From the IMG/VR virus record IMGVR_UViG_3300046018_000035, positions 1-38,749 of that record: a DNA stretch of 38,749 nt, one strand, 5' to 3'. Below are positions 1,118-37,651 of the stretch, one piece after another; within the stretch, counting starts at the first letter, position 1; each line of letters starts with the position of its first letter. This DNA comes from a virus. Position numbers and translations under genes: made by a program. The notes under the pieces were generated by a model. The model saw only the letters and a list, made by a program, of their open reading frames with translations. It had not been told where the DNA came from and made no database searches.

Positions 1118-2768
1118 GTCCTGAGATGTCACAGATGTCGTGTTCTTCAAACACTGTTCCTTGGTGCTTGATGGCATTTTCATAGGAGCACTCTGTAATG
1201 GGTTGACCTCCTCGACTTCCGTCTGGATAACACGTAAATCCACGTAGTCGTGGTGCATACTCGCTAAGGACTTGAGCAAACTTCCCAACGTCTTGCTCTG
1301 AATTACCTTTTGAACCCCAGGAAGGGAGGTTAATGGTAGAGCTGATTGACATATCAACGTAATCTTGAATGTCTGCTTGGAACTTAATTCGTTGTTCATA
1401 GTTGTGACTTAGTTTATATGCTGTATCTACTGATTCTGGTGCAACTCCGGTGTCCTTGATGATTCGGTCGGCTGTTGCATCGACGACATACATATACTTC
1501 CATTTAGTGCCTTCTGTGAGGAAACGCCTTTTGTATGCCACTGCAAATAGAGGCTCAATTCCCGTTGTAGTTGACGCAAGGATACCAATTGTACCTGTCG
1601 GGGCAATTGCTCGGTAAGCAACCGGACGTGAGATATAAAATCGGTCACAATGGTCGTTAGCACTTCGTTCGGATTCGTCCCTGTAAACTTTGAGCCATTT
1701 ATGTAGTTCATCTGTTACCTCGTATTTTTGTCCTCGTTGAAGGAGCCATTCGTGAATACCCATAAGGCCGAGCCCGAGCCGTCGATTTTTCTCGCGAACC
1801 TTATATACTTTTTCGTATGGTAAGTCAGCTCGCAAAGTTCCGCAGACGAGGAACTTGGACGCCAAACACACGATACTCTTGAACTCCTCCAAATTAGAAA
1901 TATTACCGAGATTAATACTCCCAAGATTGCATACGTCGCTGTCATCCTCGGAAGTAACTTCCGTGCAAGCATTCCGTAGGGTTTCATTTTGTTTAAGTCC
2001 AAAGTTAAAGGAAAATCCGGGCTCCCCTGTCTCCATTGCTTGGCGAACATTCTTTAGAAAGATAGGATTGTTTTCTAGATGATTAGTAAATCCAGTATGT
2101 TTATCCCATGTTTTTCCCAAAGCAGCATCATCATAGTTGACACTAATATTAGTCATATCTAATGGACCAGGAAAATTAAAGTCTTTAGTTTTATTTTCTT
2201 TAATTACATCCGACCAATTTTTTGCTCTAAGGAACAGAGGAATGTCTTCATGTTGCCAATTGAGACTAGCGTAGATTGCACTACGTCGGCTTCCGCCCTG
2301 CATAACATTCCGTCCGATTTCATTGATAGCCGACATAAGGGGGATAGGCCCACTAGCGATGCCACCAGTCCTTGATAGAGGCTTTCCAGATGCGCGTAGT
2401 CGTGAATAGTCAATTCCAATTCCACCCCCAGTCATTAAACAAGACATAGCCCGCCATGTTACGTTGCTCCACTCTTCTCTGGTATCTTCTTCAGCTCGAA
2501 GTAAGTAGCAATTGTTGTAAGCTTTATAGGGCCTTCCTGCGTAATACAGGTATCGTCCGCCCGGGATGAAACGCATTTCTTTAATGTGTTGAGCAAGTTC
2601 TTTTCTATCTGAGTCAGACATAAGAACTGGGAGAGTTCCCCCTCTACTTCCACATACATCTTCAACAAGGCGTTCGGAGAGGGCATCCCAAGTGTCGTTA
2701 GGTCCTTGGGCGTATTTGTTTCGGAAAATTTGTCGGGCGAATTCTGTCTTAAATCGGTCAATTTGCAT
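1095..2768 (-). CDS. nrdJ: Class II (B12-dependent) ribonucleotide reductase
   Basis: Reduces ribonucleotides to deoxyribonucleotides for phage DNA synthesis. The family signatures are present: Cys87 in NNCYLL and Cys280 in VCNLGSINL (the redox pair of the fold), Cys268/Glu270 in NACTEV (thiyl radical site) and the APTGTIGI...TTTGIEP loop. No small radical subunit or activase gene is near, and the sequence resembles adenosylcobalamin-dependent NrdJ. At 557 aa it is compact, as in phage NrdJ. The C-terminus ends HGGSCGV with a single Cys rather than a clear Cys pair, so the re-reduction route is unclear. It overlaps the upstream methyltransferase-like gene by 11 nt. Confidence 0.88.
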   Translation of the reverse strand: MQIDRFKTEFARQIFRNKYAQGPNDTWDALSERLVEDVCGSRGGTLPVLMSDSDRKELAQHIKEMRFIPGGRYLYYAGRPYKAYNNCYLLRAEEDTREEWSNVTWRAMSCLMTGGGIGIDYSRLRASGKPLSRTGGIASGPIPLMSAINEIGRNVMQGGSRRSAIYASLNWQHEDIPLFLRAKNWSDVIKENKTKDFNFPGPLDMTNISVNYDDAALGKTWDKHTGFTNHLENNPIFLKNVRQAMETGEPGFSFNFGLKQNETLRNACTEVTSEDDSDVCNLGSINLGNISNLEEFKSIVCLASKFLVCGTLRADLPYEKVYKVREKNRRLGLGLMGIHEWLLQRGQKYEVTDELHKWLKVYRDESERSANDHCDRFYISRPVAYRAIAPTGTIGILASTTTGIEPLFAVAYKRRFLTEGTKWKYMYVVDATADRIIKDTGVAPESVDTAYKLSHNYEQRIKFQADIQDYVDMSISSTINLPSWGSKGNSEQDVGKFAQVLSEYAPRLRGFTCYPDGSRGGQPITECSYENAIKHQGTVFEEHDICDISGHGGSCGV

Positions 2769-3273
2769 CTTCTTTAATTGCTTTCAAAATAACTTGTAAT
2801 GAACCTTCGTTTTCTTGTAGATGAACAGTTTTGAAATTCCCAGGCCAAACAAAACGATAGTCTGTTCTGGCACTTTCTCCGACTTCTTTATACACATCCT
2901 GGTCTAGAAAAGTAAAGGTTTCTCCTGTTAGTATTCGTGTATGTCCTGGATCACCCCATGCCCAAATACTTTTAGCATCTGGTACAAGGATAAACATATG
3001 TCCATTATTCTTTAGAACACGCCAATATTCAGTGAATTCCTCAAAGAATGTTTTCCAATCTCCTTGCTTACCTAGATGTTCAAGAACATCGTAGGCATGT
3101 ACTTCATCAAAGAAATCGTCTTGGAAGGGTAATGGACGTTGGTTTAAATCATAAAGAATATCTGGACTACTATTGGGGTCTATGTCTACCCTGATTACAT
3201 TATTCCAGAATGGTTTTTCTTTAAACCAAAGTCTCTTCTTTAAAAAACTACCACACCCTAGGAGTAGTTCCAT
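2758..3273 (-). CDS. Class I SAM methyltransferase-like protein
   Basis: A 171-aa protein with a Rossmann-type methyltransferase pattern: an N-terminal LLLGCGSF segment (motif I, SAM-binding loop), an acidic VDIDPN strand end (motif II) and the DEVHAYDVLEHL segment typical of methyltransferase type 11 proteins. The target is unknown. A second, distinct methyltransferase of the same broad class lies in the tail module at 37.6 kb. There are two adjacent ATG codons. The second is preferred because AAGGA then has usable spacing. It lies between a small basic protein and the reductase, so it is expressed with the nucleotide-metabolism genes. Confidence 0.7.
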   Translation of the reverse strand: MELLLGCGSFLKKRLWFKEKPFWNNVIRVDIDPNSSPDILYDLNQRPLPFQDDFFDEVHAYDVLEHLGKQGDWKTFFEEFTEYWRVLKNNGHMFILVPDAKSIWAWGDPGHTRILTGETFTFLDQDVYKEVGESARTDYRFVWPGNFKTVHLQENEGSLQVILKAIKEDAN

Positions 3274-3424
3274 CATCTTCCTTTAGAAATTCTTTAAGTT
3301 CTTCCTGACGTTCTTTATCACTTTGAATACGTAAGCGAAATTTAATACTCTTACTATGGTTAAGACTAAGAGCTTCCTTTTCTTTCTTCTTAGAAAGCTT
3401 AGTCTTCTTCTCGGATGAGTGCAT
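3248..3424 (-). CDS. Small Lys/Glu-rich protein, unknown
   Basis: A 58-aa, strongly charged protein with a Lys-rich first half (KKTKLSKKKEKEA) and an amphipathic, Glu-rich second half. It overlaps the 52-aa protein upstream by 26 nt and the methyltransferase-like gene downstream by 26 nt, typical of this packed operon. The ATG at 3,424 was chosen; an in-frame TTG 24 nt upstream is an alternative. The ribosome site is weak, so translation may be coupled. Confidence 0.5.
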   Translation of the reverse strand: MHSSEKKTKLSKKKEKEALSLNHSKSIKFRLRIQSDKERQEELKEFLKEDDGTTPRVW

Positions 3425-6701: not shown

Positions 6702-7241
6702 TTAGTAAGGAACGTCATCCGTTTCTAAATCATTAGGTTGCTTAAACAAATCTTCTGTTTGATACACGAAATCAACAAATTGTTGTGCAACATCTAGGAT
6801 TTCATTTACTTTAAATCCCTGACCAGCACCATCTTGCTGCTTACAATACTCAATTGCATTACTAATAGAACTTTGTCGAATAATGTAAAGCTGCTTAACC
6901 TTGCGTTCTTCAGGAGTTTCGTATGTACTCACGTTCGTTCGCGCAGAGCCTACGGCACCCGCCTTCACAGATACCCCTGCGTCAGCAGCGGCCGACGTGG
7001 TACTCTCCACGGAGGCCCATTGATTGAAGCCCTTATCATTCTTAGTAACTTCTACATTATACTCTTCACCAGGCTTCATGGTGCGAACCTTGGCAAAAAT
7101 ACCAGGGTTGCTAAACGACATAATGTTCTGTGTGCGGTTTTGTCCATTAAAGGAATAAACTACAGCAGCCTTGTCATACTTGTTCTTACCATTACGAACT
7201 TCTTCAATGTTGACTTCAACAACCTTAATCTTGAACGGCAT
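6702..7241 (-). CDS. Single-stranded DNA-binding protein-like
   Basis: A 179-aa protein next to the polymerase. The first 80 residues look like an OB-type beta domain (VVEVNIEEV, AAVVYSFNGQ, YNVEVTKND). The middle is Ala/Ser-rich and flexible. The C-terminus ends LETDDVPY, matching the acidic aromatic tip (DDIPF type) with which SSB proteins recruit partners. It is therefore a replicative SSB by position and tail, though the core is divergent. It overlaps the polymerase C-terminal gene by 17 nt. Confidence 0.75.
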   Translation of the reverse strand: MPFKIKVVEVNIEEVRNGKNKYDKAAVVYSFNGQNRTQNIMSFSNPGIFAKVRTMKPGEEYNVEVTKNDKGFNQWASVESTTSAAADAGVSVKAGAVGSARTNVSTYETPEERKVKQLYIIRQSSISNAIEYCKQQDGAGQGFKVNEILDVAQQFVDFVYQTEDLFKQPNDLETDDVPY

Positions 7242-7968
7242 ATTCTTTCATGTCCTTTTTGTTGGGGCCAACCTGAACTTCACAGGTTAGCGGAAGAGAA
7301 AAATCGTAACCAAAATGCTTACGACATAAATCTGGTACACTCTCTACAGCTTTTTTCAAGAGCATACTAATAGTATAACAGTTTTCTGCTGGTGTGTCAA
7401 TTACTAAACTGTCGTGGATGGTTCCTACAAACTTATATTCCAGGCCGGATTCTTTAAGGAGTCTTACTGCTTCAATTCTGGCAAGCATAACCAAGTCTGC
7501 TCCGAATCCCTGTACTGGGTAATTCTTGATGCAGGTAAGGGGCCACTTCCAGGCTCCGCCATCCCAGGACTGGCGGAATTCTGGAGTAAAGGCATAAAAG
7601 CGTCCAGAAGGGATTGTAAGGTACCCATCACGCTTAACGATGTCGAGTAGTTTGTCATGCCATTGTTTAATCCCTGAGTACTTGGTGTAGTAGTCGTCAA
7701 TTACTTGTTGCCAGAACTTTTGAGAAGAGCTAACTCCAGTGAAATCGGGATCGTTAGCATAGCTGTACGCGCTTCCTCCATAGATGAGTCTGAATTTAAA
7801 AATCTTGGCAACCAGTCGTCCTGGCTTTCCTTCTCCAAGTCTGAAGGCAACTCTATTTGTGTCATGTATATCTACCTTATCAATAATTTCTTTGCGTAAT
7901 ACTTTGTCGCCGGACAGTTCCGCAGCGACAACAACCTCAAGACCTTTTACATCACAGTTAATTAGCAT
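7225..7968 (-). CDS. DNA polymerase A, palm/fingers part (split gene)
   Basis: The C-terminal half of a family A DNA polymerase (247 aa). Motif A is Asp6-xxxx-Glu11 in NCDVKGLEV. Motif B is complete (Arg51, Lys55, Phe59, Tyr63-Gly64), and motif C is His185-Asp186 in TIHDSLVI. The exonuclease and thumb part is a separate upstream frame ending 11 nt inside this one. The ATG at 7,968 is the first codon able to start it, but no clear ribosome site precedes it, so it may be made by coupling or by frameshifting. Both parts are otherwise undamaged. Confidence 0.9.
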   Translation of the reverse strand: MLINCDVKGLEVVVAAELSGDKVLRKEIIDKVDIHDTNRVAFRLGEGKPGRLVAKIFKFRLIYGGSAYSYANDPDFTGVSSSQKFWQQVIDDYYTKYSGIKQWHDKLLDIVKRDGYLTIPSGRFYAFTPEFRQSWDGGAWKWPLTCIKNYPVQGFGADLVMLARIEAVRLLKESGLEYKFVGTIHDSLVIDTPAENCYTISMLLKKAVESVPDLCRKHFGYDFSLPLTCEVQVGPNKKDMKEYAVQD

Positions 7969-9163
7969 AACGTGAGATAAAAAACTGCTCTACCTCAGGA
8001 GGTTGGTTCTGCATGTTTGGTGCAGAACTACTTAGACGGCCAGTGACTGCAACATTTTGGTTAAATTGCCCATGAATCAAATTGTCTGTCCATTGCTTGT
8101 CGTTAAATTGTTTAAAAAGGCTCTCCAGCATTTCACAAACCTTCTGTGTTTCACTGCGCTTTTGTAGCGTAGTGAGGACGTTCTTAGCAGTCTTATTTCC
8201 CTTTAAGGAAGCTAGAGTCGGGGCATCCGTCTGATAAATCCTCGTGGGCACCGTTTTGTCCTTAGTCTTTTTAGTCTCAGTGCCGTCAATCGGGCTGAAT
8301 AATGTAGGAAAAACAATCTTTTCGATATGCCACGAATTCTTCGTATATTGCTCACCCCTTTTAGGGCCACTTTTATACACCGCCTGTGCGGGAATGGCAT
8401 AATCAAACTCTATCGTACCGCCATATAAGAAGCAACTGAGATGATCGCCAGAATCCCAATTAAAAGTTCCGTGGGAAATAGTAGGAAGAAGGCTGGCAAG
8501 TTGTAGCTCCAATAAACCAACTTGTTCTTTACTTGCTGTAAGATATTTTCCAGCCTTGTCAGAGTCAAATAAAAGACCATTATGCTCAATATTTGCCAAT
8601 ACCTTGAGGTCTTCCCCCAAGAGGTATACAAGTCGTTTTTGTTCATCGCTTAAAAGCTCCTGCTGAACCAGGAAGAGTTTCTCAGTTTGTATAACGTCCC
8701 ATTCATTGTACTCTTGAAGAATTGGAATTGGAATATCATCTGTTTGAGTGCCTGCTTCCCAAAGTTCTTTAACGAGATCAATTTTAGTTTCAAGTCCATA
8801 TTTAATTAAACATTCATTAAGAGAAATAAATTGGGCCTTCTGGCCGGTGTAGATGTGTTCTGCTAGTTGGCAGTCCCACACAGGATTACTTAGCCCACTA
8901 GGAAATAGCCAATGGTAATCAAATTTAAAATTAAAACCAACACAGACACTGGTATGGCCCAATCCTCGTAGGAATGAAGTGAAGTCAGGATCAGAAAAGT
9001 ATTTGAAAGTAACAGCAGAGCCGTTGTGTTTGATAGCATATGATACTAGTTTATTTCTAGGGTCAAAGGGATGGCCCTTGTTATATGTTTGGGTTTCACA
9101 GTCCAAAACGGTGTAGGGTGCTTCCGTGTGGGATTCAAACCCACTACTGTCCGTGTTATCCAC
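7958..9163 (-). CDS. DNA polymerase A, exonuclease/thumb part (split gene)
   Basis: The N-terminal part (401 aa) of the replicative family A polymerase. The proofreading exonuclease motifs are intact: Exo I Asp21-x-Glu23 (LDCETQ), Exo II Asn78-x3-Asp82 (NFKFD) and Exo III Tyr152-x3-Asp156 (YNEWD). The thumb follows, and the product ends just after the conserved TGRLSSSAPNMQNQPP segment (374-389), where an intact enzyme would run into motif A. The start is GTG with AAAGGA upstream. Both lie inside a tRNA-like fold. No later in-frame start would keep Exo I. Confidence 0.9.
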   Translation of the reverse strand: MDNTDSSGFESHTEAPYTVLDCETQTYNKGHPFDPRNKLVSYAIKHNGSAVTFKYFSDPDFTSFLRGLGHTSVCVGFNFKFDYHWLFPSGLSNPVWDCQLAEHIYTGQKAQFISLNECLIKYGLETKIDLVKELWEAGTQTDDIPIPILQEYNEWDVIQTEKLFLVQQELLSDEQKRLVYLLGEDLKVLANIEHNGLLFDSDKAGKYLTASKEQVGLLELQLASLLPTISHGTFNWDSGDHLSCFLYGGTIEFDYAIPAQAVYKSGPKRGEQYTKNSWHIEKIVFPTLFSPIDGTETKKTKDKTVPTRIYQTDAPTLASLKGNKTAKNVLTTLQKRSETQKVCEMLESLFKQFNDKQWTDNLIHGQFNQNVAVTGRLSSSAPNMQNQPPEVEQFFISRYAN

Positions 9164-10640: not shown

Positions 10641-10932
10641 GTCTTTTATTAAATCCTTCCACTTCCTTCTTTGGAAGCTGTGTAAGCGGAGCACATTGTA
10701 CAGCCCGTCCTTCTTCATCCACAATGAATCCTCCAACATTATAGCACATGCTATGATAAAGTTCAACTCCTTCTGTAGTTCCTACTTTTTTGCCTTGATA
10801 GTAACCAGCGCCTGTGAAGATTGCTAGCACAGATAGGGCAAGAAGGGCCTTAATCGGGCGATAGAGCCTGTTTCCAGACCACCGAGCTAGGGTGGTAGCC
10901 ATAGCCCACCTGAGGGCGTTAAATTGGCTCAT
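10627..10932 (-). CDS. Small membrane protein, unknown
   Basis: A 101-aa protein with a basic N-terminus and one hydrophobic segment (IKALLALSVLAIFTGAGYY, about 27-45), followed by a soluble part with two cysteines (Cys63, Cys80). It is probably anchored in the inner membrane. The ATG at 10,932 overlaps the ThyX stop (ATGA). An ATG at 10,902 with AGGTGG five bases upstream is an equally good start and keeps the membrane segment. I do not recognise the family. Confidence 0.65.
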   Translation of the reverse strand: MSQFNALRWAMATTLARWSGNRLYRPIKALLALSVLAIFTGAGYYQGKKVGTTEGVELYHSMCYNVGGFIVDEEGRAVQCAPLTQLPKKEVEGFNKRLDNT

Positions 10933-11612
10933 TTCAACAAAGCCTGCAAAGCATTAGGGAAAGAAGGAAGTAATTGGTTGTACATTTCTTGTGCAATATC
11001 CTGTGTTTCTTTCTGCGTGTGAGGATCTAAACGCAACTTAAAGATGCGGCTCCATGCAGCAAGGGAGCCTGTCCACCACCACTCTGTCATCATGTTTTGT
11101 GGAAGAATCATACGGGCTTGTTCAGGGGCTACACCACCCTCTAGGAGCATGTTATATGTCATTAGACTTTCTTTAACAGAATTATGAAAATGTATAGAAA
11201 GCTCATTAGCAAATACTCCTGTAACTACCCCATCAGATCCTTGCTTAGCATTTACCGGCTTACCTCGCCATCCATCCGGATAGAAAAACTCTGGTTCGTC
11301 ATCGACATAGCGCCGACTAACTTCATTCCACACAAGTCCCACTTGATGCTTTCCAAGCTGACGTGCTACAAAAATAGGAGCTTTAATTACAAAGGTAGCA
11401 TTGACGTGCCCAAATGGTGTCCAATGTCCATGAGAAGCAAGATAATTAATTAGATTAATATCCTTTCCAGCTAGAGCATCAAATTCACAATCTAAGTGGA
11501 TATGATGGTTCCAAGTGCTTTCTTTATGAAAACTTACACGAGCAGCATTGACAATGTCAAGTTCTGTACCATCTACTTTACGTAGAGTTACTTCACAGTT
11601 ACTTATCTTCAT
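10929..11612 (-). CDS. thyX: Flavin-dependent thymidylate synthase
   Basis: Makes dTMP from dUMP using methylene-tetrahydrofolate and FAD. The core resembles ThyX throughout (AARVSFHKES, TPFGHVNATF, NEVSRRYVDDEPEFF). The signature usually written RHRx7S appears as ARQLGKHQVGLVWNEVSRRY, where Arg, His, Asn-Glu and Ser align but the second Arg is Gln. The ATG at 11,612 has GAGG six bases upstream, better than the TTG at 11,618. With the deaminase and reductase it completes a phage route to dTTP. Confidence 0.92.
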   Translation of the reverse strand: MKISNCEVTLRKVDGTELDIVNAARVSFHKESTWNHHIHLDCEFDALAGKDINLINYLASHGHWTPFGHVNATFVIKAPIFVARQLGKHQVGLVWNEVSRRYVDDEPEFFYPDGWRGKPVNAKQGSDGVVTGVFANELSIHFHNSVKESLMTYNMLLEGGVAPEQARMILPQNMMTEWWWTGSLAAWSRIFKLRLDPHTQKETQDIAQEMYNQLLPSFPNALQALLK

Positions 11613-11778
11613 TAACAACCTCTACTTCTGTACTAGCACTCAAGTGAATAGGTTCGCCGTTTAGATAACAAAGAGAATACATACCATCAATATGCTTAAA
11701 ATCAATCAAATATTTTATTTCACTTTCTGAATCTGTATAAATAATCTTGCTATTCCTGGGAACTTCGTAGAGCTTCAT
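11599..11778 (-). CDS. Unknown 59-aa protein
   Basis: A short gene (MKLYEVPRNSKIIYTDSESE and 39 more residues) between primase and ThyX, overlapping both (29 nt and 14 nt). AAAGGA lies seven bases before the ATG. It has a beta-rich pattern similar in style to small phage proteins of unknown function, and no motif is recognised. Confidence 0.75.
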   Translation of the reverse strand: MKLYEVPRNSKIIYTDSESEIKYLIDFKHIDGMYSLCYLNGEPIHLSASTEVEVVNEDK

Positions 11779-12487
11779 TAATTTCCTTTATGGGTAATTC
11801 TTTAGGGTCATTCTTGGTAGATATAAACTGAACTGGAAGCCCTGTCAAGCCCTGTAACCAAGCTGCTTTACGTGTGATCGTCCCTCTTTGATCCGCATCC
11901 AGCCACAACACAATAGGTTTTTGCTGTGCCATTAAATATTTTATATGACAGGGATGTATCTGTGTACCAAATAGAGGTAATGTGGGCACGACTTGTCCGA
12001 CCTTGTGGGAGGAAATCCAATCTTCTACTAGAACTATTATCGAAGAGGGGGCCAAGGCCAGGAAATTGTGGATAGGGAAGGCTTGCTTGTGGCTGTCTCC
12101 CCAGACATACCATTTCCTTTGTTTGTCCTTCCCCACATACCGTCCAATAGAGAAGGCTGTTGGGTTTCCAGGCAAGCTGGGGTTTCCCACGGTGAATATG
12201 AGGCGCTCTTGTCCAGGAGAATAGCCAACTGAGTCTTTCCAATAGCTCCAGGGTAGTCCATATTGCAAGAGCCATTTGAAGGCTGATGCTGGAACTTCTC
12301 TGGTGAAGTCACTAGGTAGCATAGCTTTTGAGACATCATTCTTTACCTCAGGTTTTACATAGTGTTTAGGAAACTCATGATAGCTACATGAGAAACAGTG
12401 GTAATGACCATTATTAAAATTAACAAGGTTGTCCCCTGCCCTATCATTACCAATAGAGCGGCAACGAGGACATGGGGAAGTTTTCAT
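11750..12487 (-). CDS. DNA primase (zinc finger plus Toprim)
   Basis: A 245-aa primase. The N-terminal zinc finger uses Cys6, Cys9, Cys31 and Cys34 (CPRC...CFSC), and the Toprim domain has VLVEDWISSHKV (Glu) and VLWLDADQRG (DxD). It is separate from the helicase, whereas T7 gp4 joins both in one chain. The start is an ATG that overlaps the previous gene's stop by 4 nt. It primes lagging strands together with the helicase and SSB. Confidence 0.9.
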   Translation of the reverse strand: MKTSPCPRCRSIGNDRAGDNLVNFNNGHYHCFSCSYHEFPKHYVKPEVKNDVSKAMLPSDFTREVPASAFKWLLQYGLPWSYWKDSVGYSPGQERLIFTVGNPSLPGNPTAFSIGRYVGKDKQRKWYVWGDSHKQAFPIHNFLALAPSSIIVLVEDWISSHKVGQVVPTLPLFGTQIHPCHIKYLMAQQKPIVLWLDADQRGTITRKAAWLQGLTGLPVQFISTKNDPKELPIKEINEALRSSQE

Positions 12488-12693
12488 TCTTCTTCGTCGT
12501 TACTAGGGTCCATTAGAAATTCAATATCCCCATCCTCCACATTATCAAATGGATTGAGGTCTTCTCGTCCAATGGTGGCAATAGGAATATCTTTCAGACA
12601 TTTCTGGCAGATGTCAACAAATTCATTATTGTCAGCACGACGTAGTGTACTTTCATAATCAGAAAGAAATCGGTTACAACATTGACAACGCAT
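12484..12693 (-). CDS. Small zinc-ribbon protein
   Basis: A 69-aa protein with two CxxC pairs (CQCC near the N-terminus and CQKC about residue 34), enough for one zinc ribbon, followed by a very acidic C-terminus (DNVEDGDIEFLMDPSNDEEE). It could bind nucleic acid or a protein partner. The ATG overlaps the ATP-grasp gene's stop (TGATG). A GTG three bases upstream is also possible. It links the amide-bond cluster with the replication genes. Confidence 0.7.
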   Translation of the reverse strand: MRCQCCNRFLSDYESTLRRADNNEFVDICQKCLKDIPIATIGREDLNPFDNVEDGDIEFLMDPSNDEEE

Positions 12694-13421
12694 CACTTCA
12701 CCCTTTTAGTCAAATTAAAAGCCTTAATCAAGGCTTCACTATATCGCTGCAAAGTTGTACCCATTAGCCCAGGCCGAGAATTCACTTCAAGAACAAAACA
12801 CTGATTACGTTTCTCATTGTAGACAATATCGACAGCACCATATTGATAACCCACAGCAGCAACTGCTGCAATAGCGAGGCTATGAATGCCGTCAGGAGGA
12901 AGAATAGCATCCCGAGTGTAGCAATAGCCGTTAGCACAATTACGAACACGTGTGTCCCTATCCCCGTCAAATCCACGCTTCTTTTTCTTTTGTTGAATGT
13001 CAATTACTTCTCCATTGAAGACATGGACTCGATATTCTGCTTTCTTTGGGATGTATTCAGTATAAAGTGGAGCCCTCGGATATATATCTGAGGACGACTC
13101 AAACTCGATAATGCCTCGCCCATTAGTGGAGTTAATGAGGGTTCTAGCAAAGAGAGTTTTGCAATTAAGATTTCTTGCTCCTCCGATAGTGACAGCAGCC
13201 TTTGGACAAGAGATATTGTTTTGTTGGAATTTGACAAACTGCTCTATCTTATTAAGAGTTTTAGGAACCACTTGAAAAGCCGCCCGTGATCGACCGCCCT
13301 TAAGTTTTTTAATTGTACTACGCCTATAAATCTGATTAACTACTTCTTCTCGAAGCTGCTGCTGTAGTGCCCGTGCAAATTTACTTGCTACAGGGTTTAC
13401 AACAATATCAAGTTTCTTCAT
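12693..13421 (-). CDS. ATP-grasp amide ligase (RimK-like)
   Basis: An ATP-dependent carboxylate-amine ligase: it activates a carboxyl as acyl-phosphate and joins it to an amine. Visible signatures are a glycine loop NSTNGRGI (97-104), the TEYIPKKAEYRV segment (121-132) typical of phage ATP-grasp proteins, a basic patch QKKKKRG, Asp198 in AVDIVYN and the metal-binding Glu212-x-Asn214 in LEVNSRPG. At 242 aa it has only the minimal ATP-grasp core with a short N-terminal region. It is followed by a glutamine amidotransferase and two more amide ligases. The substrate is unknown. Confidence 0.88.
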   Translation of the reverse strand: MKKLDIVVNPVASKFARALQQQLREEVVNQIYRRSTIKKLKGGRSRAAFQVVPKTLNKIEQFVKFQQNNISCPKAAVTIGGARNLNCKTLFARTLINSTNGRGIIEFESSSDIYPRAPLYTEYIPKKAEYRVHVFNGEVIDIQQKKKKRGFDGDRDTRVRNCANGYCYTRDAILPPDGIHSLAIAAVAAVGYQYGAVDIVYNEKRNQCFVLEVNSRPGLMGTTLQRYSEALIKAFNLTKRVK

Positions 13422-13430
13422 ATAAGTTCC

Positions 13431-14708
13431 TTAATGTGGAATGAGTGTCTCAGTGTAAAAAGGTTTTACATTTGTCATCAAGCAGGTAACAACCATATGC
13501 CCAGGAGACGCTGTAAGAGTTCTAACTGCTACAATGTTTGCAGTATACCACTCATTTTCTAGATAGTCAAGCATTTGTTCTGATGTTTTGTTATAGACAA
13601 ACCAGTGAAATGTAACCCTATCCATCTTACCATCTGGCGTAGTAGTCGATGCTGACATATGCCATGTAGTACAGTTTGGATGTTTATTGGCAGGAATATA
13701 GTCATTAAGTTCAATAAAGATTTCCTTGGAATGATCTCCAGTGCGAAGAGTTTCAGCAATCTCTAGTGCATCACCAATAGACAAGAATAGTTCAGGACTT
13801 TCAGAAGCAATAATTTCAATAAGTGCCCTATCTACCTGTTCTGCTTGAGGACGAGTATATGGAAATCTAGTTACATTCTCATGGTGTCCCTGATACGAAA
13901 CAGTTTCGTCCACCATGTAATCCCAGTCAGGTAGGTCAACTCGGCGGTTATCGGTGTAGACGTTTGTTGCATTGGAGTGACAAAAGGGAGCCTCATAAGC
14001 ACACTGGAGCTTTTCATCCCCCCGTTCCCAAGAATGAGCCTTCAATGAAAGTGTTACAAGAACATTAGCTTCTAGCATATAGCTTTGCTGTGTGTATTTC
14101 AAGCCATGCCTATCTGCGGCATTCTCCATAAATCCGGGCTCACTAGCCCACATCAATCCACCACTAGTAAGCTCAAGCAACCATAGGGGCCGCTCAGGAT
14201 TACGAATCATATGTAGCTTACCAGTCTCAGCGTTAAACCACACCAAAGCATATGCTGCATTAATTTTCTTAAGGGCTGTGGTAATATCCTCATTCTCTGA
14301 GATAACATGAGCTACTGCCTCAGTGTCAACCTCAGTGTCTTTATGATGCTTATGGCTGCCCTTGTATGTGCCATTTTGCACCAAAACAATTTTATCATCC
14401 ACTACAAAGGGATGGGCATTTTTGTCTGTGATCGTCCCCCGTGTAGCTGCCCTGTTATGCCCCACTGCAAACACTCCGGCCCTAATTAGGGCCTGTTTAT
14501 ATTCATTAAATTCAGGACGACGAATAAAAGAGCCACCATCAGATGCTTCCTTCCAAATCCCCACATTTTTATGCTTGTCTACGCCAAAGACACCAGTAGA
14601 ATCCCACCCCCGAAGGGTATCAAAGAATAGCATGTCAGCAAAAGCATCAACCTCTTGCTTACTAAAACCACCCATGTATGCCGAAGCAAAGCCCACAATT
14701 CCACACAT
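13431..14708 (-). CDS. Class II glutamine amidotransferase (Ntn hydrolase)
   Basis: Releases ammonia or a glutamyl group from glutamine. The N-terminal nucleophile Cys2 (MCGIVGF), GHNRAATRG (83-91), NAHPF (97-101), QNGTY (111-115) and DTE (128-130) are all present, as in GlmS/AsnB-type domains. The C-terminal 200 residues show no synthase domain I can recognise, so it is not GlmS or AsnB itself. The start overlaps the amidoligase stop (TAATG), showing tight coupling. It probably supplies ammonia or glutamate to the neighbouring ligases. Confidence 0.9.
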   Translation of the reverse strand: MCGIVGFASAYMGGFSKQEVDAFADMLFFDTLRGWDSTGVFGVDKHKNVGIWKEASDGGSFIRRPEFNEYKQALIRAGVFAVGHNRAATRGTITDKNAHPFVVDDKIVLVQNGTYKGSHKHHKDTEVDTEAVAHVISENEDITTALKKINAAYALVWFNAETGKLHMIRNPERPLWLLELTSGGLMWASEPGFMENAADRHGLKYTQQSYMLEANVLVTLSLKAHSWERGDEKLQCAYEAPFCHSNATNVYTDNRRVDLPDWDYMVDETVSYQGHHENVTRFPYTRPQAEQVDRALIEIIASESPELFLSIGDALEIAETLRTGDHSKEIFIELNDYIPANKHPNCTTWHMSASTTTPDGKMDRVTFHWFVYNKTSEQMLDYLENEWYTANIVAVRTLTASPGHMVVTCLMTNVKPFYTETLIPH

Positions 14709-15703
14709 TATTCTTCCTCCTCTTCTTCATTCTCTTCATTAGCTTCTGCAAGCCTATCAAGTTCTTCATTGTCAAGCTCCCTTGGTACTGGACCTTCTTC
14801 AAAATATTCTAAAGGTGCTTCACGAGCAAAACGATAACGATTAATTCGCGGGTCAAGAGCATTATCTAGCCAGGAATGGGAAATACTCTCAGAACTTTTC
14901 ATTAATGCAAACTTAATATCAAGAACACCAAGTTCAAGTAGTTGCTCAAATTGTGGAATTTTCAAAAATTCTATTGTGTGTTCCTCAAATACATTAAATA
15001 GAATGTTCTGATATAGAGAATTGGTATTGAGACTACAAATCTCTTCTTTAATTTCGTTAAGAGTTTTAATGCGGGCATATCGGTAAATTGCCCCAATCAA
15101 ACGACACCATAGAAGGATAAGGGGGACATTCCCATGTCCATGCATATGTCGCCACTCAATTGTGCCTTGAGTAAACAAAGGAAGTAGATTAAGTCCTGTA
15201 TATTTTTGCCATCTCTTAAATCTCATAATGTCCTCAGGATTATTTAGAATAGAGTATGTCAAATTAGTTTGATGCCACGGAACACAAAAGATATTGTCTT
15301 TCCTGCCATTCCCTACAAACTCATACAATAGGCGCTCGAACACTTGGTATAGGATGATGATCGACTGTACTTGTTCAATCTCCAAATCTTGACAGTTGGT
15401 GTGCACATGAATGGAACACCGATCAGAATAGTTTTCCTTGGAAACATTTGCAAGCTTAAAGAATTTATCTAGACAGTATGCTAGAGTGCTATAAGGCATT
15501 GGGGCAGTGATGAATTCACGCCCATTATTACGAAGAGAACCATCCTCAGTAACAGTAATGCCCCAACTTTGCCAGTCCTGTGTACGTTCAATCTCAAGTT
15601 CTAGTCCATAAAATAATGCTGGATCAGGACATAGCAGCAATGGGGCTGATTTAAGAGACTTAATCCCTACAGGAGCCAAACCAAGAAGTTCTTTAATATT
15701 CAT
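14708..15703 (-). CDS. Amidoligase, glutamine-synthetase-like fold
   Basis: A 331-aa COOH-NH2 ligase of the putative amidoligase family. Motifs: GLELEIE (33-39, metal-binding Glu), EDGSL (53-57), EFITAP (63-68), SIHVHTN with His99 and His101, and IEWRHMHGHG (182-191). These enzymes are predicted to form peptide or isopeptide bonds. The C-terminus is a run of Glu residues. The ATG has GAGGTG upstream and overlaps the gene before it by 11 nt. It differs from the second ligase at 16.3 kb, so the cluster has two enzymes of this fold. Confidence 0.88.
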   Translation of the reverse strand: MNIKELLGLAPVGIKSLKSAPLLLCPDPALFYGLELEIERTQDWQSWGITVTEDGSLRNNGREFITAPMPYSTLAYCLDKFFKLANVSKENYSDRCSIHVHTNCQDLEIEQVQSIIILYQVFERLLYEFVGNGRKDNIFCVPWHQTNLTYSILNNPEDIMRFKRWQKYTGLNLLPLFTQGTIEWRHMHGHGNVPLILLWCRLIGAIYRYARIKTLNEIKEEICSLNTNSLYQNILFNVFEEHTIEFLKIPQFEQLLELGVLDIKFALMKSSESISHSWLDNALDPRINRYRFAREAPLEYFEEGPVPRELDNEELDRLAEANEENEEEEEE

Positions 15704-16265
15704 AAGTCACCTCGTATGAATCACCATCTCGACGAATAAAATCAGAAAGTTCTTGTCTAAGAAGAGGAGTAGTGAGTTTAATTTTATTTCCTTCTACAAC
15801 ACCAATCTGTTTATCATAGAAGAACACCTTAGATTCTGTCACCAAGAAAAGATGATGGAAATGTTTTCCAACAGTGGGCATTGGGGGACTGATAAAGACA
15901 TCATAAAGGATTTCTAAAGAAATATCCAGGTGTTGAAGACCATTATATGGATGATCTTTAGTACAGCTAGTATTAGATTTACTAATACCACGATTGTATT
16001 GCTTCACGGGAGTCCGTTGTAGAAGTACCCATCCTTCTCGTGTAAAGAACCAGCCACGAGTAATAGGAAGGAACTCAAACTCAACACCAACGTCCCAATA
16101 AACAAAGAAATTCTTACCTGCAATAGTGTCAAAATGTACCTTATCATCAACTTTAGAAATATAGCAAAGCGTTTTCTTTTTCTGAGCACCTAGCAAATAG
16201 CCATATGTTCGTTGATAGCGCTGGCGAAAATCATTCACACAGTCACTAGTGAGGGATTCAATCAT
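15693..16265 (-). CDS. Unknown protein inside the amidoligase cluster
   Basis: A 190-aa soluble protein, beta-rich and aromatic (NFFVYWDVGVEFEFLP, GWFFTREGWVLL). I see no catalytic motif. It lies between the two amidoligases with overlaps on both sides (TAATG and 11 nt), so it is made together with them. It may be a substrate-binding partner or itself the protein that is modified. Confidence 0.7.
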   Translation of the reverse strand: MIESLTSDCVNDFRQRYQRTYGYLLGAQKKKTLCYISKVDDKVHFDTIAGKNFFVYWDVGVEFEFLPITRGWFFTREGWVLLQRTPVKQYNRGISKSNTSCTKDHPYNGLQHLDISLEILYDVFISPPMPTVGKHFHHLFLVTESKVFFYDKQIGVVEGNKIKLTTPLLRQELSDFIRRDGDSYEVTYEY

Positions 16266-17053
16266 TACACCACCATAGGAATGTTAAATTTATTAATCAA
16301 TTCTTGTGCAACTTGTTTGTTATTACCATTAATTGCTTCGAGAATTTGGGTCTGTTCTTTGTCAACGTCAAGGGACATTGATTCCAATGCCAGTTGTGTA
16401 TTTTCCCAAATCCAGCGAGTCAACTTAGGAGTAAAAATCCAATAGTTACTCAGCACACGATATTCAAAACCATAAGGCTTAGGACGGAATGCACCAGCCT
16501 TCCCATAGAGTTGCTTACGAAGATCACCAGAATCCATCAATGTACTGGGCACACCAAGGAACAAGTCCATAAGCTTAACTGCTTTGGCCTTATCGGAGAT
16601 ATGATCGACCCCAACATGGACATGCCCCCCACAGCTACGCAAGGATGCATCAGACGCGGCCGGACGAGGATTAATAGAATTAGTCCAAGCATTAAAGTCG
16701 GGCTCACATCCGAACTCCTTAGCCATGGGATCAAGGAGTTGATCTTCCGGAAAGTAGGCCGCACTGAGAGTGCTAAAGGCCAGCCCTTTCTCTGCTACCA
16801 TACCACCAAGATGAGCCATAGCAAGGCCAATGTTCTTAACAAGAGCATCAGCACTCTTGCTGGCAGGAATGTTGTACTCCAACGCAACATTGTCTTCCTG
16901 GACAGCAAATCCCTTACCAATTGGAAGAGGAAGTGGGTCGTATTTCGATCCCCCAATCTTGCCAATGGAGGAAATCAAATTAGCAGAATTAAATGCATCA
17001 ACCAAAAAAATCTCTGGATCAGCACCAATAGACAGCTTCAGTTTCTTGCTCAT
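16265..17053 (-). CDS. phiEco32-type COOH-NH2 ligase
   Basis: A second glutamine-synthetase-fold amide ligase (262 aa), matching the phiEco32-like type: GADPEIF (10-16), QEDNVALEYNI (52-62), CGGHVHVGVDH (141-151, metal-binding His) and EYRVLSNYW (197-205). It joins a carboxyl to an amine using ATP. The start has AAGGA at good spacing, and the stop overlaps the next start. Its distinct motifs suggest a different substrate from the neighbouring amidoligase. Confidence 0.9.
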   Translation of the reverse strand: MSKKLKLSIGADPEIFLVDAFNSANLISSIGKIGGSKYDPLPLPIGKGFAVQEDNVALEYNIPASKSADALVKNIGLAMAHLGGMVAEKGLAFSTLSAAYFPEDQLLDPMAKEFGCEPDFNAWTNSINPRPAASDASLRSCGGHVHVGVDHISDKAKAVKLMDLFLGVPSTLMDSGDLRKQLYGKAGAFRPKPYGFEYRVLSNYWIFTPKLTRWIWENTQLALESMSLDVDKEQTQILEAINGNNKQVAQELINKFNIPMVV

Positions 17054-17062
17054 ACTATGTCC

Positions 17063-17311
17063 TTACGATTTACAGATGATAATGAAAGACGAGGGGGCGG
17101 CGCGCTCTTGATGAGCCTTAGTATAGAAATTTGGCCCCTGATAAACAATCTTATCAAATAAACTAACACTCTTAAGCCAGTCTTTCCAATCACTGGTGCG
17201 AGAAAGACTAATCGAGAAAATATGGTATTCATTTGGCCGAAGATGGTCTATAAAATATTGCTTGTTTCTTGGCGCATGATACCATTGTATTTCGTGTTGA
17301 TGAACTTTCAT
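17063..17311 (-). CDS. Unknown 82-aa protein
   Basis: A small aromatic, His-rich protein (MKVHQHEIQWYHAPRNKQYF and onward). It is not recognised. It sits 9 nt from the phiEco32-type ligase and the next gene, so it belongs to the same transcript. Confidence 0.6.
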   Translation of the reverse strand: MKVHQHEIQWYHAPRNKQYFIDHLRPNEYHIFSISLSRTSDWKDWLKSVSLFDKIVYQGPNFYTKAHQERAAPSSFIIICKS

Positions 17312-17320
17312 ACTGTACTC

Positions 17321-17650
17321 TCAATCCCAAAGATGGTTACGATTTCTATAGAAGTCATCTGAGAGCACATATCGAAAAGCAATTGTGTCTCTACCCATTT
17401 TAAAAATATCCACCTGTGTGTGGGGGAATTCTTTAATTTCTTCGCGCTTCGGATTTACTATAACCGTAACCCCAATTATATTATTAAGATTATTAAATTC
17501 TTCCATTGAGGTAACATACTGCGCTCCACAATTACCAGTAAAGTGGTAGTATGGATTATGCCTAAGTTCTCCAATGTAACTACCCCAACTAAAATTATGG
17601 GTTGGAGTCTTTTCCTTGGTAAACCCCACTTGAATATCTTTAATAGGCAT
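17321..17650 (-). CDS. Unknown 109-aa protein
   Basis: A soluble, beta-rich protein (WGSYIGELRHNPYYHF, IGVTVIVNPKREE). No known motif is seen. GGAG lies seven bases before the ATG, and the gene overlaps the C26 hydrolase by 11 nt, so the two are co-translated. Confidence 0.65.
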   Translation of the reverse strand: MPIKDIQVGFTKEKTPTHNFSWGSYIGELRHNPYYHFTGNCGAQYVTSMEEFNNLNNIIGVTVIVNPKREEIKEFPHTQVDIFKMGRDTIAFRYVLSDDFYRNRNHLWD

Positions 17651-18305
17651 TTACAGTCTCCAAATGTTTGCTCATAAACTCTTCAATATATTTAGTACTT
17701 GGAATGTCTCGCTCCAAATATTCTGGATGCCATTGAACAGCAAATCCATTAATTTCATTAAAGAAAATAAACTCGGGCTCCTGGTTATGATCGACCTGCT
17801 TATTCCCATCGATATAGATATTGCTACGCAATTCTTCAAGAGGAACTTCAGCAATTATCTCATGAACAACAGGTTCATTTGTAATTGGTGAACGAGGTAC
17901 CATCATCTGATGATGATAGCTGTTAACCAGCAAACACTTGCCATCGTAGGTATTTATCCAATGATCCCCGAGATGACCGTGAACGTGTTGCATGAGGTAA
18001 CCACCAGCAAACGCACATAAGATTTGAGCACCACGGCAAATACCCAGGATTGGTATTCCTAGAGTCTTCGCCTTAGTCATCATTGCCCACTCAATTCGAT
18101 CCCTACGACTGGGATAGAGAGAAGCACCAGATTGTAGGGATATGGGCCGATGATAAAGTTCAGGACTAATATCTTCCCCTCCCCACAACAAAAGAATATC
18201 CCCCTCCCTTAGATCCTCAGGTGAGTTTGTTGTAGCACAGCTATCAACGAATGAGAATTTATCAAATGGAAAATAATCATCAAAAATACAAGAGACTAGA
18301 CGCAT
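17640..18305 (-). CDS. Class I glutamine amidotransferase-like hydrolase (C26)
   Basis: A 221-aa gamma-glutamyl hydrolase or amidotransferase-like enzyme, closest in pattern to the PuuD/C26 group. LLWGGEDISPELYHR (39-53) and the SRRDRIEW segment precede the nucleophile elbow ILGICRGAQ (Cys90), and QWHPEYLERD carries the catalytic His193 and Glu195. Members cleave gamma-glutamyl amide bonds. At the upstream end of the amide-bond cluster it could hydrolyse the product or provide ammonia. Start ATG with AGGAAAATTT. Confidence 0.9.
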   Translation of the reverse strand: MRLVSCIFDDYFPFDKFSFVDSCATTNSPEDLREGDILLLWGGEDISPELYHRPISLQSGASLYPSRRDRIEWAMMTKAKTLGIPILGICRGAQILCAFAGGYLMQHVHGHLGDHWINTYDGKCLLVNSYHHQMMVPRSPITNEPVVHEIIAEVPLEELRSNIYIDGNKQVDHNQEPEFIFFNEINGFAVQWHPEYLERDIPSTKYIEEFMSKHLETVNAY

Positions 18306-32082: not shown

Positions 32083-32775
32083 TTGGTTGAAGCCAACCTA
32101 GCAGAACATTCCTATTTTATTGCTATCCCAGCATACGATGGTAAAGTTTGTGCAGAGACTTGTTCTAGTTTACTTGGTGTGTCAGGATTCCTTGGGTTTA
32201 ATGGAATTAATCACCAAATGAAGATTATTCGTAGTGGTGCTTTAATTGACTCTGTACGGAATGATTTGTTTCATTCATTTCTACATGACAGCTCTGCAGA
32301 TACGTTGATTCTTTTAGATAGTGATATTATGTTTGAATGGGAAGACTTTCAAAGACTCGTTGTCTTTTCTCATCATCATGACATTGTCTGTGGCAGTTAC
32401 CCAAGTAAAAAGGACACTCCAGAATTCATTGTTAACTACAATAAGCTGGAACTCGATAAAGACGGTTTGCTACCAATTACTTCCATTGGTATGGGGTTTG
32501 TGGCAATTAAACGGCAAGCTCTTTTAAAAATGCAAGATGTCCTTGAGACTTATTTTGATAATAAGACCCAACGAAGAATCTATGCATATTGTAGACTTGA
32601 GATTAAAGATGGAGAGTACATTGGAGAAGACATTCACTTCTTCAATAAGGCTGTAGAGGCTGGGATACAACCAATGCTTGATCCGGCAATTGTCTTAGGG
32701 CATGTGGGTATTAAGCAATATACTGAGAAATTCAAGGATCATATCACACCCCTCTTAGCTGTACAATCAGCATAA
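32083..32775 (+). CDS. Glycosyltransferase-like protein (GT-A fold)
   Basis: 230 aa with an N-terminal AIPAYDGKVC strand, LILLDSDIMF (DxD metal and nucleotide-sugar site), a SIGMGFVAIKR acceptor loop and a later EDIHFFNKAVEAG segment (catalytic Glu/Asp type). It transfers a sugar from a nucleotide-sugar to an unknown acceptor. The start is TTG with AAGGAG upstream. A second GT-A-like protein lies at 36.9 kb in the same operon. Confidence 0.8.
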   Translation: MVEANLAEHSYFIAIPAYDGKVCAETCSSLLGVSGFLGFNGINHQMKIIRSGALIDSVRNDLFHSFLHDSSADTLILLDSDIMFEWEDFQRLVVFSHHHDIVCGSYPSKKDTPEFIVNYNKLELDKDGLLPITSIGMGFVAIKRQALLKMQDVLETYFDNKTQRRIYAYCRLEIKDGEYIGEDIHFFNKAVEAGIQPMLDPAIVLGHVGIKQYTEKFKDHITPLLAVQSA

Positions 32776-36919: not shown

Positions 36920-37651
36920 ATGCAACCACAAATAATTAGTTCATATGATGGAGGAAAGCATAGTGCAGACCTCGATCAAACAATTAGTAGACTTACCTTA
37001 GAGGGTGGTTATAAAGACCTATCCTGCATTCAAATCGTTCCGTGCTTTGGCAGTATTCCTACCCGTGCTGTATCTTCTTGGCTTAGCCTGTACACTCCTC
37101 CTAATGCTAAGTTTACACGTCTTTTTGCTGTAGGAATGGAAGTTGGGGTTGCTTTTACTAGTGCTATTGAATCTATTTTAGCCCATTCTGAGTTATCTCA
37201 ATGGAAATACATTGTAACTTTAGAACATGATAATATTCCTCCTCCAGACGGCATTGTAAAACTTCTACAACAAATGGAAACTCATCCAGAATATGCATGT
37301 ATTGGTGGGCTATACTTTACTCAAGGCCCTGGTGGATGTGCCCAAATTTGGGGAGATCCTAAAGACCCCGTATTAAACTTTAGACCACAAATTCCAATTC
37401 CAAATACTTTACAAGAATGCTGTGGTACTGGAATGGGATTTAATGTATGGCGTTTAGATATGTTTAAAGATATTAAACTACGTCGTCCTTGGTTTAAAAC
37501 CCAGACAGAAAATGGTGTCTCAACACAAGACCTTTATTTCTGGAGTGATGCTAGGAAACATGGCTATCGTTGTGCTATAGATACTAATGTTAAGGTTGGA
37601 CATTACGACTTAGATGGTAAAAGGGGCGGCATTGCCGACATGGTATGGTAA
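36920..37651 (+). CDS. Second glycosyltransferase-like protein (GT-A fold)
   Basis: 243 aa with TLEHDNIPPPDG (metal-site loop), an acceptor loop GTGMGFNVWRLDMF, and STQDLYFWSDARKHGYRCAI (catalytic acidic segment). The GMGF loop recalls the one at 32.1 kb. AGGCTTAA precedes the ATG. It overlaps the methyltransferase by 7 nt, so sugar transfer and methylation may act on the same target. Confidence 0.75.
   Translation: MQPQIISSYDGGKHSADLDQTISRLTLEGGYKDLSCIQIVPCFGSIPTRAVSSWLSLYTPPNAKFTRLFAVGMEVGVAFTSAIESILAHSELSQWKYIVTLEHDNIPPPDGIVKLLQQMETHPEYACIGGLYFTQGPGGCAQIWGDPKDPVLNFRPQIPIPNTLQECCGTGMGFNVWRLDMFKDIKLRRPWFKTQTENGVSTQDLYFWSDARKHGYRCAIDTNVKVGHYDLDGKRGGIADMVW

Follow-up and report, generated by a model that had tools for sequence, protein, structure and literature searches.

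The virus record IMGVR_UViG_3300046018_000035 of IMG/VR (38,749 nucleotides, hereafter the window, taken at its full length) carries on its minus strand a cassette of eight genes that, judged from its sequence, can be assigned to the phiEco32/RIO-1-type phage amidoligase cassettes. A single operon encodes a COOH-NH2 ligase of family PF14395 (COOH ligase), an amidoligase of family PF12224 (AL2), a class II glutamine amidotransferase (GAT2), a RimK-like ATP-grasp ligase and a hydrolase of the C26 family, and a protein of 190 amino acids (aa) belonging to a recurring family is encoded between the two amidoligases. The best explanation, in which we place middling confidence, is an early pathway that would form and trim glutamyl amides on a cytosolic acceptor of host origin, the 190-aa protein serving as adaptor. 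Since such cassettes are already in print, the set is of a known kind whose function is unproven, to which the window adds a C26-type member. Its novelty is thus lower than was scored in the initial annotation of this DNA, the cassette having been published for RIO-1-like podoviruses. Two points are newly added here: the 190-aa member recurs, and nearly all records examined encode a gamma-glutamyl-cleaving enzyme. The recurring partner and the gamma-glutamyl cleavage step provide two testable handles on an unsolved, apparently early phage function that is widespread, given the distribution of the COOH ligase.

Enzymes of the cassette and their nearest relatives

The initial annotation described an eight-gene operon with an ATP-grasp enzyme, a glutaminase, two amidoligases and a C26 hydrolase, the catalytic-type residues of all five enzymes being intact. 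Both statements hold. Eight open reading frames (ORFs) were confirmed on the minus strand at 12693-18305, with gaps of -11, +9, +9, -1, -11, -1 and +9 bases between successive genes. All five enzymes matched Pfam families above the cut-offs: RimK for the ATP-grasp ligase (22.4 bits, cut-off 21), GATase_6 for GAT2 (47.0 bits, cut-off 27), Amidoligase_2 for AL2 (26.5 bits, cut-off 22), COOH-NH2_lig for the COOH ligase (48.5 bits, cut-off 25) and Peptidase_C26 for the hydrolase (68.7 bits, cut-off 20.5). The catalytic-type residues all occur in the window, and across the alignments they vary little or not at all. For the COOH ligase, D12, E14, E59, H144, H146, R190, E197 and R199 are among 23 invariant columns in 22 aligned sequences, and for AL2 the ExExE, HxH and ExR motifs (E35/E37/E39, H99/H101, E183/R185) are invariant in 28. 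Conserved amidoligase residues of this kind are known as catalytic from the glutamine-synthetase superfamily, and both enzymes presumably adopt a glutamine-synthetase-like fold. Their profiles found no sequence match in the PDB even at E 1.

The ATP-grasp ligase carries a RimK ATP-grasp domain with the Mg-binding D/E/N residues. E129, R131, D198, E212 and N214 are invariant in 26 sequences, and D198, E212 and N214 align with PDB entry 7qyr. The closest PDB matches of its profile are alpha-L-glutamate ligases of the RimK type (7qyr, 2.5e-13; 5zct, 3e-13). Its score with the NCBIfam model rimK_fam is below the cut-off (29.1 vs 143.4 bits).

GAT2 possesses the cysteine nucleophile C2 and the glutamine-binding residues R86, N112-G113 and D128 of class II amidotransferases. 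In an alignment of 65 sequences, the latter four positions are invariant and C2 is found in at least 90%; the window's residues also align with those of GlmS. The predicted structure (predicted local distance difference test, pLDDT, 87.2; predicted template modelling score, pTM, 0.61) consists of a glutaminase domain at residues 2-238, a low-confidence linker at about 240-290 and a separate domain at about 295-420. It aligned with PurF (Z 25.4, root-mean-square deviation (rmsd) 2.2, 212 residues aligned), GlmS (Z 24.6, rmsd 2.5, 208 aligned) and EgtC (Z 21.6, rmsd 2.8, 207 aligned), in each case within residues 2-241.

The hydrolase has a C26 domain with a Cys-His-Glu triad (C90/H193/E195) that is invariant in 25 sequences and was aligned with Lin1909. 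Its profile matched in the PDB Lin1909 (6.7e-25), 7d4r (5.9e-15), which we take to be SpuA of P. aeruginosa, and PuuD (6vtv, 6.7e-10). Entry 7d4r and related entries are labelled 'probable glutamine amidotransferase'. Among NCBIfam models, that of gamma-glutamyl-CDP-amidate hydrolase scored best, though with 46.5 bits against a cut-off of 250, and the match to the PuuD equivalog is also below its cut-off (19.5 vs 266 bits). Because its closest relatives are Lin1909, 7d4r and PuuD and because of this best model, the enzyme resembles a gamma-glutamyl amide hydrolase and not an ammonia-feeding amidotransferase. No additional Pfam domain exceeded its cut-off in ten long variants of AL2, GAT2, the ATP-grasp ligase and the COOH ligase.

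Co-occurrence of the cassette genes and gamma-glutamyl cleavage

Of 50,697 phage records, 312 carry the COOH ligase, as do at least 588 stretches of IMG/VR. When 84,980 species genomes of bacteria and archaea were scanned with a pattern, 16 loci were obtained, all of them in records titled as metagenome-assembled genomes (MAGs), and none of 72,556 plasmid records matched at E 1e-4. The phages concerned infect many hosts: they include phages of E. coli and Pseudomonas, one cyanobacterial phage and one crAss-like phage.

The survey of co-occurrence proposed in the initial annotation was carried out with one iterated profile per gene, scored on 118 loci whose IMG/VR stretches are the best 80 of at least 588. 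Four loci (L001, L002, L012 and L013) are the window or a contig whose compared proteins are identical to those of the window and were dropped, leaving 114 loci with a COOH ligase, 60 of which are well flanked, i.e. extend 5 kb or more beyond that gene in either direction. Among these 60, AL2, GAT2 and the ATP-grasp ligase were each found in 59, C26 in 53, gamma-glutamyl cyclotransferase (GGCT) in 17 and the 190-aa family in 48. AL2, GAT2, the ATP-grasp ligase and at least one of C26 and GGCT occur together in 57 of them. The exceptions are L018 and L022, which have a GGCT elsewhere in the genome, and L110. Cassette genes were distributed over both strands in 0 of the 118 loci. The co-occurrence of the cassette genes is well beyond chance, and an absence of consistent co-occurrence is ruled out. 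L110 (5174-10066) is a MAG contig that carries a COOH ligase, two C26 genes and a GGCT, in which no AL2, GAT2 or ATP-grasp ligase was found; it is possibly a reduced or divergent version of the cassette.

Whole-record Pfam scans were made on 99 records, from which the 2.3-Mb MAG G005 was set aside to leave 98 from viruses; L002, whose compared proteins are those of the window, stands outside these 98. C26 exceeded its cut-off in 87 of them and GGACT (PF06094, i.e. GGCT) in 23, so that one or both are present in 94. Seven of the 11 records lacking a C26 match have GGACT. The other four (L031, L058, L072 and L097) come from contigs cut off at the cassette, on its C26 side, and in L058 and L097 a C26 ORF was found at that end with our own profile. 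Cut contigs probably explain the four misses. The window has no GGCT and has C26 instead, which is the commoner state among its relatives, whereas phiEco32 and PSA-HP1 (HP1) have GGCT and gave no C26 match in the stretches scanned. A Fisher test of the C26/GGCT pattern on the first 68 records, which counts L058 and L097 as C26-positive and ignores kinship, gave p 1.8e-4. The pattern would fit two unrelated enzymes sharing one necessary step, without proving it.

The breadth of phages bearing the ligase also concerns a metabolic role, in which the cassette would be a set of auxiliary metabolic genes aiding the assimilation of ammonium into amino acids by the host. A similar set in Phage-ZRK32 was credited with nitrogen metabolism, a function that, in the passages concerned, was inferred from the addition of whole phage and not from the genes (PMC10945688). 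The occurrence of the ligase in phages of many hosts, E. coli and Pseudomonas among them, argues against such a role, which we regard as very improbable. Class II glutamine amidotransferases, moreover, are generally known to release ammonia from glutamine and not to fix it.

The 190-aa protein, related systems and the proposed pathway

The initial annotation proposed the 190-aa protein as a partner or a target of the ligases. The first part stands: the family is present in 94 of the 114 loci with a COOH ligase, and in all 93 loci where both amidoligases were seen, its member is encoded between them, with no further cassette gene in that interval in 92. Direct tblastn found no match to the protein in the 50,697 phage records at E 0.1. 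Iterated profiles tie it to tf_20, to ORF26 of T5S1, to phi32_85 and to an ORF of HP1 at the same site, and the RIO-1 counterpart, RIO-1_12, was assigned by position. tf_20 matches 101 phage records. The family gave no match in MEP401 and ct2os315, the two records searched for its occurrence outside a cassette.

AlphaFold2 predicted, from 71 sequences, a confident beta-rich fold (pLDDT 93.1, pTM 0.86). At E <= 0.001, Foldseek matched nothing in the PDB but 11 models in BFVD, of which the named ones are phage proteins and one is a RIO-1 model. The best VIA-align match is Hfq (Z 6.1, rmsd 2.3, 55 residues aligned, residues 8-65). Further matches, at Z <= 6.1 over residues 6-68, are Sm, Tudor and SH3-like barrels and may reflect just a common arrangement. 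The best conserved positions of the family are the loop R84-x-P86-x-K/R88-Q89-x-x-R92-G93 and E172. No conserved C-terminal motif was found in the family, which speaks against a Pup-like tag or a RimK-type acceptor. The second part of the proposal, the protein as a modified target or peptide tag, was accordingly rejected, the protein being a folded domain with an unconserved C-terminus. We infer that it is a non-catalytic adaptor or scaffold.

These features also bear on protein tagging, according to which the RimK-like ligase and the amidoligases would put glutamate or a peptide on a protein of the host or the phage, to be removed by the hydrolase. The closest solved relatives of the ATP-grasp ligase modify ribosomal protein S6. 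Acidic C-terminal tails, which are a feature of RimK-type acceptors, are present on seven of 111 AL2 ORFs, one of them identical to that of the window, but the other 104 have none. The acidic-tailed zinc-ribbon protein next to the cassette goes with the primase, and the 190-aa protein makes a poor acceptor for the reasons given above. Phage R2K ATP-grasp enzymes have been predicted to modify host proteins in the passages of PMC4431377 and PMC7824862 that treat them, whereas the R2K_2 match of the window's enzyme falls below the Pfam cut-off (19 vs 26.2 bits). Tagging is considered unlikely.

The closest known systems are cassettes of other phages. In phiEco32 (Kuravirus), the COOH ligase, phi32_85 of the 190-aa family, AL2, GAT2 and the ATP-grasp ligase follow in the same order as in the window; unlike the window, phiEco32 has a GGCT after the ATP-grasp ligase instead of C26, and upstream the uncharacterised phi32_87 and phi32_88, at the site taken in the window by C26 and two orphan proteins. 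In tf-/phiEco32-type phages, two uncharacterised proteins of about 300-400 aa precede the COOH ligase and occupy the position of C26 (L017 5184-6997, L018 5000-6986, L125 14130-16311). In tf and 7-11, the two phages scanned, this pair matched no Pfam family above the cut-off; against the PDB one protein reached a best E of 0.017 (protein G) and the other gave nothing at E 1. Among the LUZ24-like phages (tf, LUZ24, PaP3, UFV-P2), tf shares the order of the window, including tf_20 of the 190-aa family. They differ by a GGCT after the ATP-grasp ligase, and tf has no C26. The RIO-1 and PSA-HP1 cassettes (Zobellviridae) share with the window the order COOH ligase, 190-aa family (identified by profile in HP1 and by position in RIO-1), AL2 and ATP-grasp ligase, a class II amidotransferase and a close primase. 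They differ by GGCT in place of C26, by GAT2 preceding the COOH ligase and by an N-terminal extension of the latter (399 aa in HP1, 398 aa in RIO-1). The full order in HP1 is GGCT, GAT2, COOH ligase, a 102-aa ORF, 190-aa family, AL2 and ATP-grasp ligase.

Cellular pathways offer more distant likenesses. PuuA/PuuD and SpuI/SpuA are gamma-glutamylation pathways of polyamines in which a ligase of the glutamine-synthetase type is matched by a gamma-glutamyl hydrolase of the C26 family. The phage C26 hydrolase counts PuuD and 7d4r among its nearest solved relatives, but the phage ligases differ in having no PDB match at E 1, and the phage set adds an ATP-grasp ligase, an amidotransferase and the 190-aa protein. 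In butirosin biosynthesis, BtrJ, an ATP-grasp ligase, is associated with BtrG, a gamma-glutamyl cyclotransferase that removes a gamma-glutamyl protecting group. The likeness lies in this pairing, and tf_25 is annotated as BtrG-like; the difference is that no acyl carrier protein or aminoglycoside gene is among the named genes near the cassette.

The initial annotation combined bond formation with bond trimming, a logic that the gene content supports. Judging by its intact active site, GAT2 would split glutamine into ammonia and glutamate. The RimK-like ATP-grasp ligase and the two amidoligases would attach glutamate or an amine, at the expense of ATP, to a host cytosolic acceptor, and the bonds formed would be amides or isopeptides through an alpha- or gamma-carboxyl. 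C26, which in other phages is replaced by or joined with GGCT, would then remove gamma-glutamyl groups, as enzymes of the PuuD/SpuA and BtrG types do. Because C26 and GGCT would remove such groups, a gamma-glutamyl amide probably arises, either as an obligatory intermediate or as a by-product to be trimmed, and the removal of the gamma-glutamyl group is perhaps a deprotection step as in the PuuA/PuuD and BtrJ/BtrG schemes. The 190-aa protein may serve these reactions as a scaffold or substrate adaptor. The target is most likely a precursor of the cell envelope or some other small amine or peptide of the cytosol, modified early in takeover. A more specific version, which we put forward tentatively, is a non-ribosomal gamma-glutamyl pathway that would pass through a gamma-glutamyl-protected intermediate, with C26 and GGCT as interchangeable, unrelated deprotecting enzymes; in podovirus-type genomes the 190-aa protein would be the sixth subunit, and the product would be a new amide metabolite or an envelope modification acting within minutes of infection.

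Several observations weigh against this pathway or parts of it. No cassette protein exceeded any NCBIfam cut-off, and therefore none is to be named as a specific known enzyme. C26 and GGCT need not be equivalent, as 16 of the 87 C26-bearing records also carry GGCT; a strict rule of mutual exclusion was rejected on the same count. On the COOH-ligase tree (71 rows), C26 presence takes at fewest four changes, only one of which is forced by supported branches, and rows L123, L011 and L009 are on long, unsure branches; a paired test on the tree had one to four independent pairs, too few for significance. The 190-aa family had no match in the larger phages of other gene order that were searched, including the crAss-like cr108_1, and since this group lacks the family, the protein is not essential to the chemistry everywhere. 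MEP401 has AL2 and GAT2 without COOH ligase or ATP-grasp ligase over its whole record, no 190-aa family match, and neither C26 nor GGCT within the 16 kb inspected, so that AL2 and GAT2 can form a sub-module.

An envelope precursor is also the target in the explanation published for the cassette, namely that the ligases add unusual amide links to cytosolic muropeptide precursors, which C26 or GGCT would trim, in order to exclude superinfection. For RIO1-like podoviruses, PMC5498523 describes a 'peptidoglycan modification cassette' of seven genes, whose hypothesised role is to prevent superinfection and which is shared by phiEco32, 7-11, PA11, tf, MR299-2, LUZ24, PaP3 and CW02, and cites Iyer et al. 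and Hardies et al. for the peptidoglycan reading in PSA-HP1 and RIO-1-like phages. The same reading is stated for phiEco32 (PMC10580990), and the predicted peptidoglycan modification genes of HP1 are expressed immediately according to PMC7082346. Such timing speaks more for a role at the envelope or in counter-defence than for modification of the virion or of DNA. The papers on tf and UFV-P2 list the cassette genes; UFV-P2 shares the layout, an unnamed 186-aa ORF standing at the site of the 190-aa protein. Nevertheless, none of the nearest solved relatives of the enzymes is peptidoglycan-specific, D-Ala-D-Ala ligases match the ATP-grasp profile in the PDB more weakly than RimK ligases do, and no experiment was found in the literature examined. 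Peptidoglycan modification is possible but doubtful. Iyer et al. reportedly treated the phiEco32 amidoligase cassette in 2009; that work lies outside the reach of our literature search, which found no gene-level experiment on the cassette or its product.

Locus layout and neighbouring genes

The features of the cassette are collected in Table 1. Over the 118 loci, matches to the 109- and 82-aa proteins were confined to the window and a single contig with the same sequences in the proteins compared, and Pfam gave no family for the 190-aa protein. Scans of the operon for promoters (24 found vs 22.3 +/- 4.7 expected) and terminators (4 found vs 5.9 +/- 2.4) were at chance level. The profile of a neighbouring 106-aa protein, u106, grew from 2 to 24 on iteration, a sign of drift, and was left unused.

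Table 1. Genes of the amidoligase cassette in the window, with the basis of each assignment
Feature	Position	Strand	Basis
C26 class-I-glutamine-amidotransferase-fold hydrolase, PuuD/SpuA/Lin1909-like, predicted gamma-glutamyl amide hydrolase	17640..18305	-	Pfam C26 8.3e-19; triad C90/H193/E195
109-aa lineage-specific protein	17321..17650	-	no Pfam family
82-aa lineage-specific protein	17063..17311	-	no Pfam or PHROG family
COOH-NH2 ligase type 2 (phiEco32 family), predicted ATP-dependent amidoligase	16265..17053	-	PF14395 8.9e-13; phrog_3815 1.4e-74
190-aa accessory protein, beta-rich; family of tf_20 and phi32_85, RIO-1_12 by position	15693..16265	-	AlphaFold2, conservation, locus survey
Amidoligase_2 (AL2) enzyme with acidic C-terminal tail	14708..15703	-	PF12224 7.1e-6; phrog_7469 6e-30
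Class II glutamine amidotransferase (GAT2)	13431..14708	-	GATase_6 3.4e-12; predicted structure
RimK-like ATP-grasp ligase	12693..13421	-	Pfam RimK over cut-off; phrog_2599 1.6e-41

The cassette runs unbroken into the gene of a 70-aa zinc-ribbon protein with an acidic tail (12484-12696, minus strand) and then into the primase gene, with further replication genes beyond. ORFs related to the zinc-ribbon protein are present in 64 of the 114 cassette loci. LysW is an amino-group carrier, and a LysW-like carrier beside the RimK-like ligase was considered and rejected: a C-terminal Glu is found in only 24 of 65 sequences, and the linkage to the ligase fails. The median distance of the zinc ribbon to the primase is 283.5 bases (58 loci), vs 688 to the ATP-grasp ligase (64 loci). 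Its homologues precede the primase in MEP401 and ct2os315, whose whole records gave no match to the COOH ligase or the ATP-grasp ligase in searches that each recovered three of three controls. By these comparisons the zinc ribbon appears to belong with the primase and not with the cassette.

The adjacent replication genes are the point in favour of DNA hypermodification, in which the cassette would build an amide-bearing group on a base of the phage DNA. Of the targets named in the initial annotation, a DNA base is the least supported. The thymidylate synthase of the window is an ordinary ThyX, and PHROGs gave no hypermodification-named family for the 20 non-cassette ORFs of the window that were scanned, some of which had no match. 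The DNA of tf, which bears the cassette, was cut by HaeIII and used in Sanger sequencing and primer extension, the stops being ascribed to nicks; this argues against a bulky base modification at those sites. The hypothesis is scarcely credible.

In Slicky01, Leptolyngbya phage Lbo-JY46, 7-11 and A24, genes of nicotinamide adenine dinucleotide (NAD) salvage lie close to the cassette. They encode phosphoribosyl pyrophosphate synthase and nicotinate phosphoribosyltransferase, or nicotinamide phosphoribosyltransferase (L016 997-3278, L020 1736-5945, L018 1-1568, L022 1-267), and suggest that some phages have here a region for counter-defence or takeover early in infection. Together with the early expression in HP1, they would agree with a counter-defence metabolite, i.e. 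an early small amide blocking or decoying a host immune signal. However, the link is seen in only four of 12 annotated phage regions, a count that carries no comparison with chance, and PADLOC found no match to the cassette proteins. We consider this role improbable.

Elsewhere on the minus strand of the window, the family A DNA polymerase is split into two ORFs, the exonuclease side at 7225-7968 and the polymerase side at 7958-9163; the annotations of MEP401 and ct2os315 likewise show separate DNA polymerase ORFs. ThyX, a flavin-dependent enzyme, is encoded at 10929-11618 and a ribonucleotide reductase-like ORF lies at 1095-2768, both on the minus strand. Glycosyltransferase-like and methyltransferase-like ORFs, with mostly weak PHROG matches, were observed at 32083-32775, 36920-37651 and 37645-38175 on the plus strand and at 2758-3276 on the minus strand, three of the four being in the structural-gene half.

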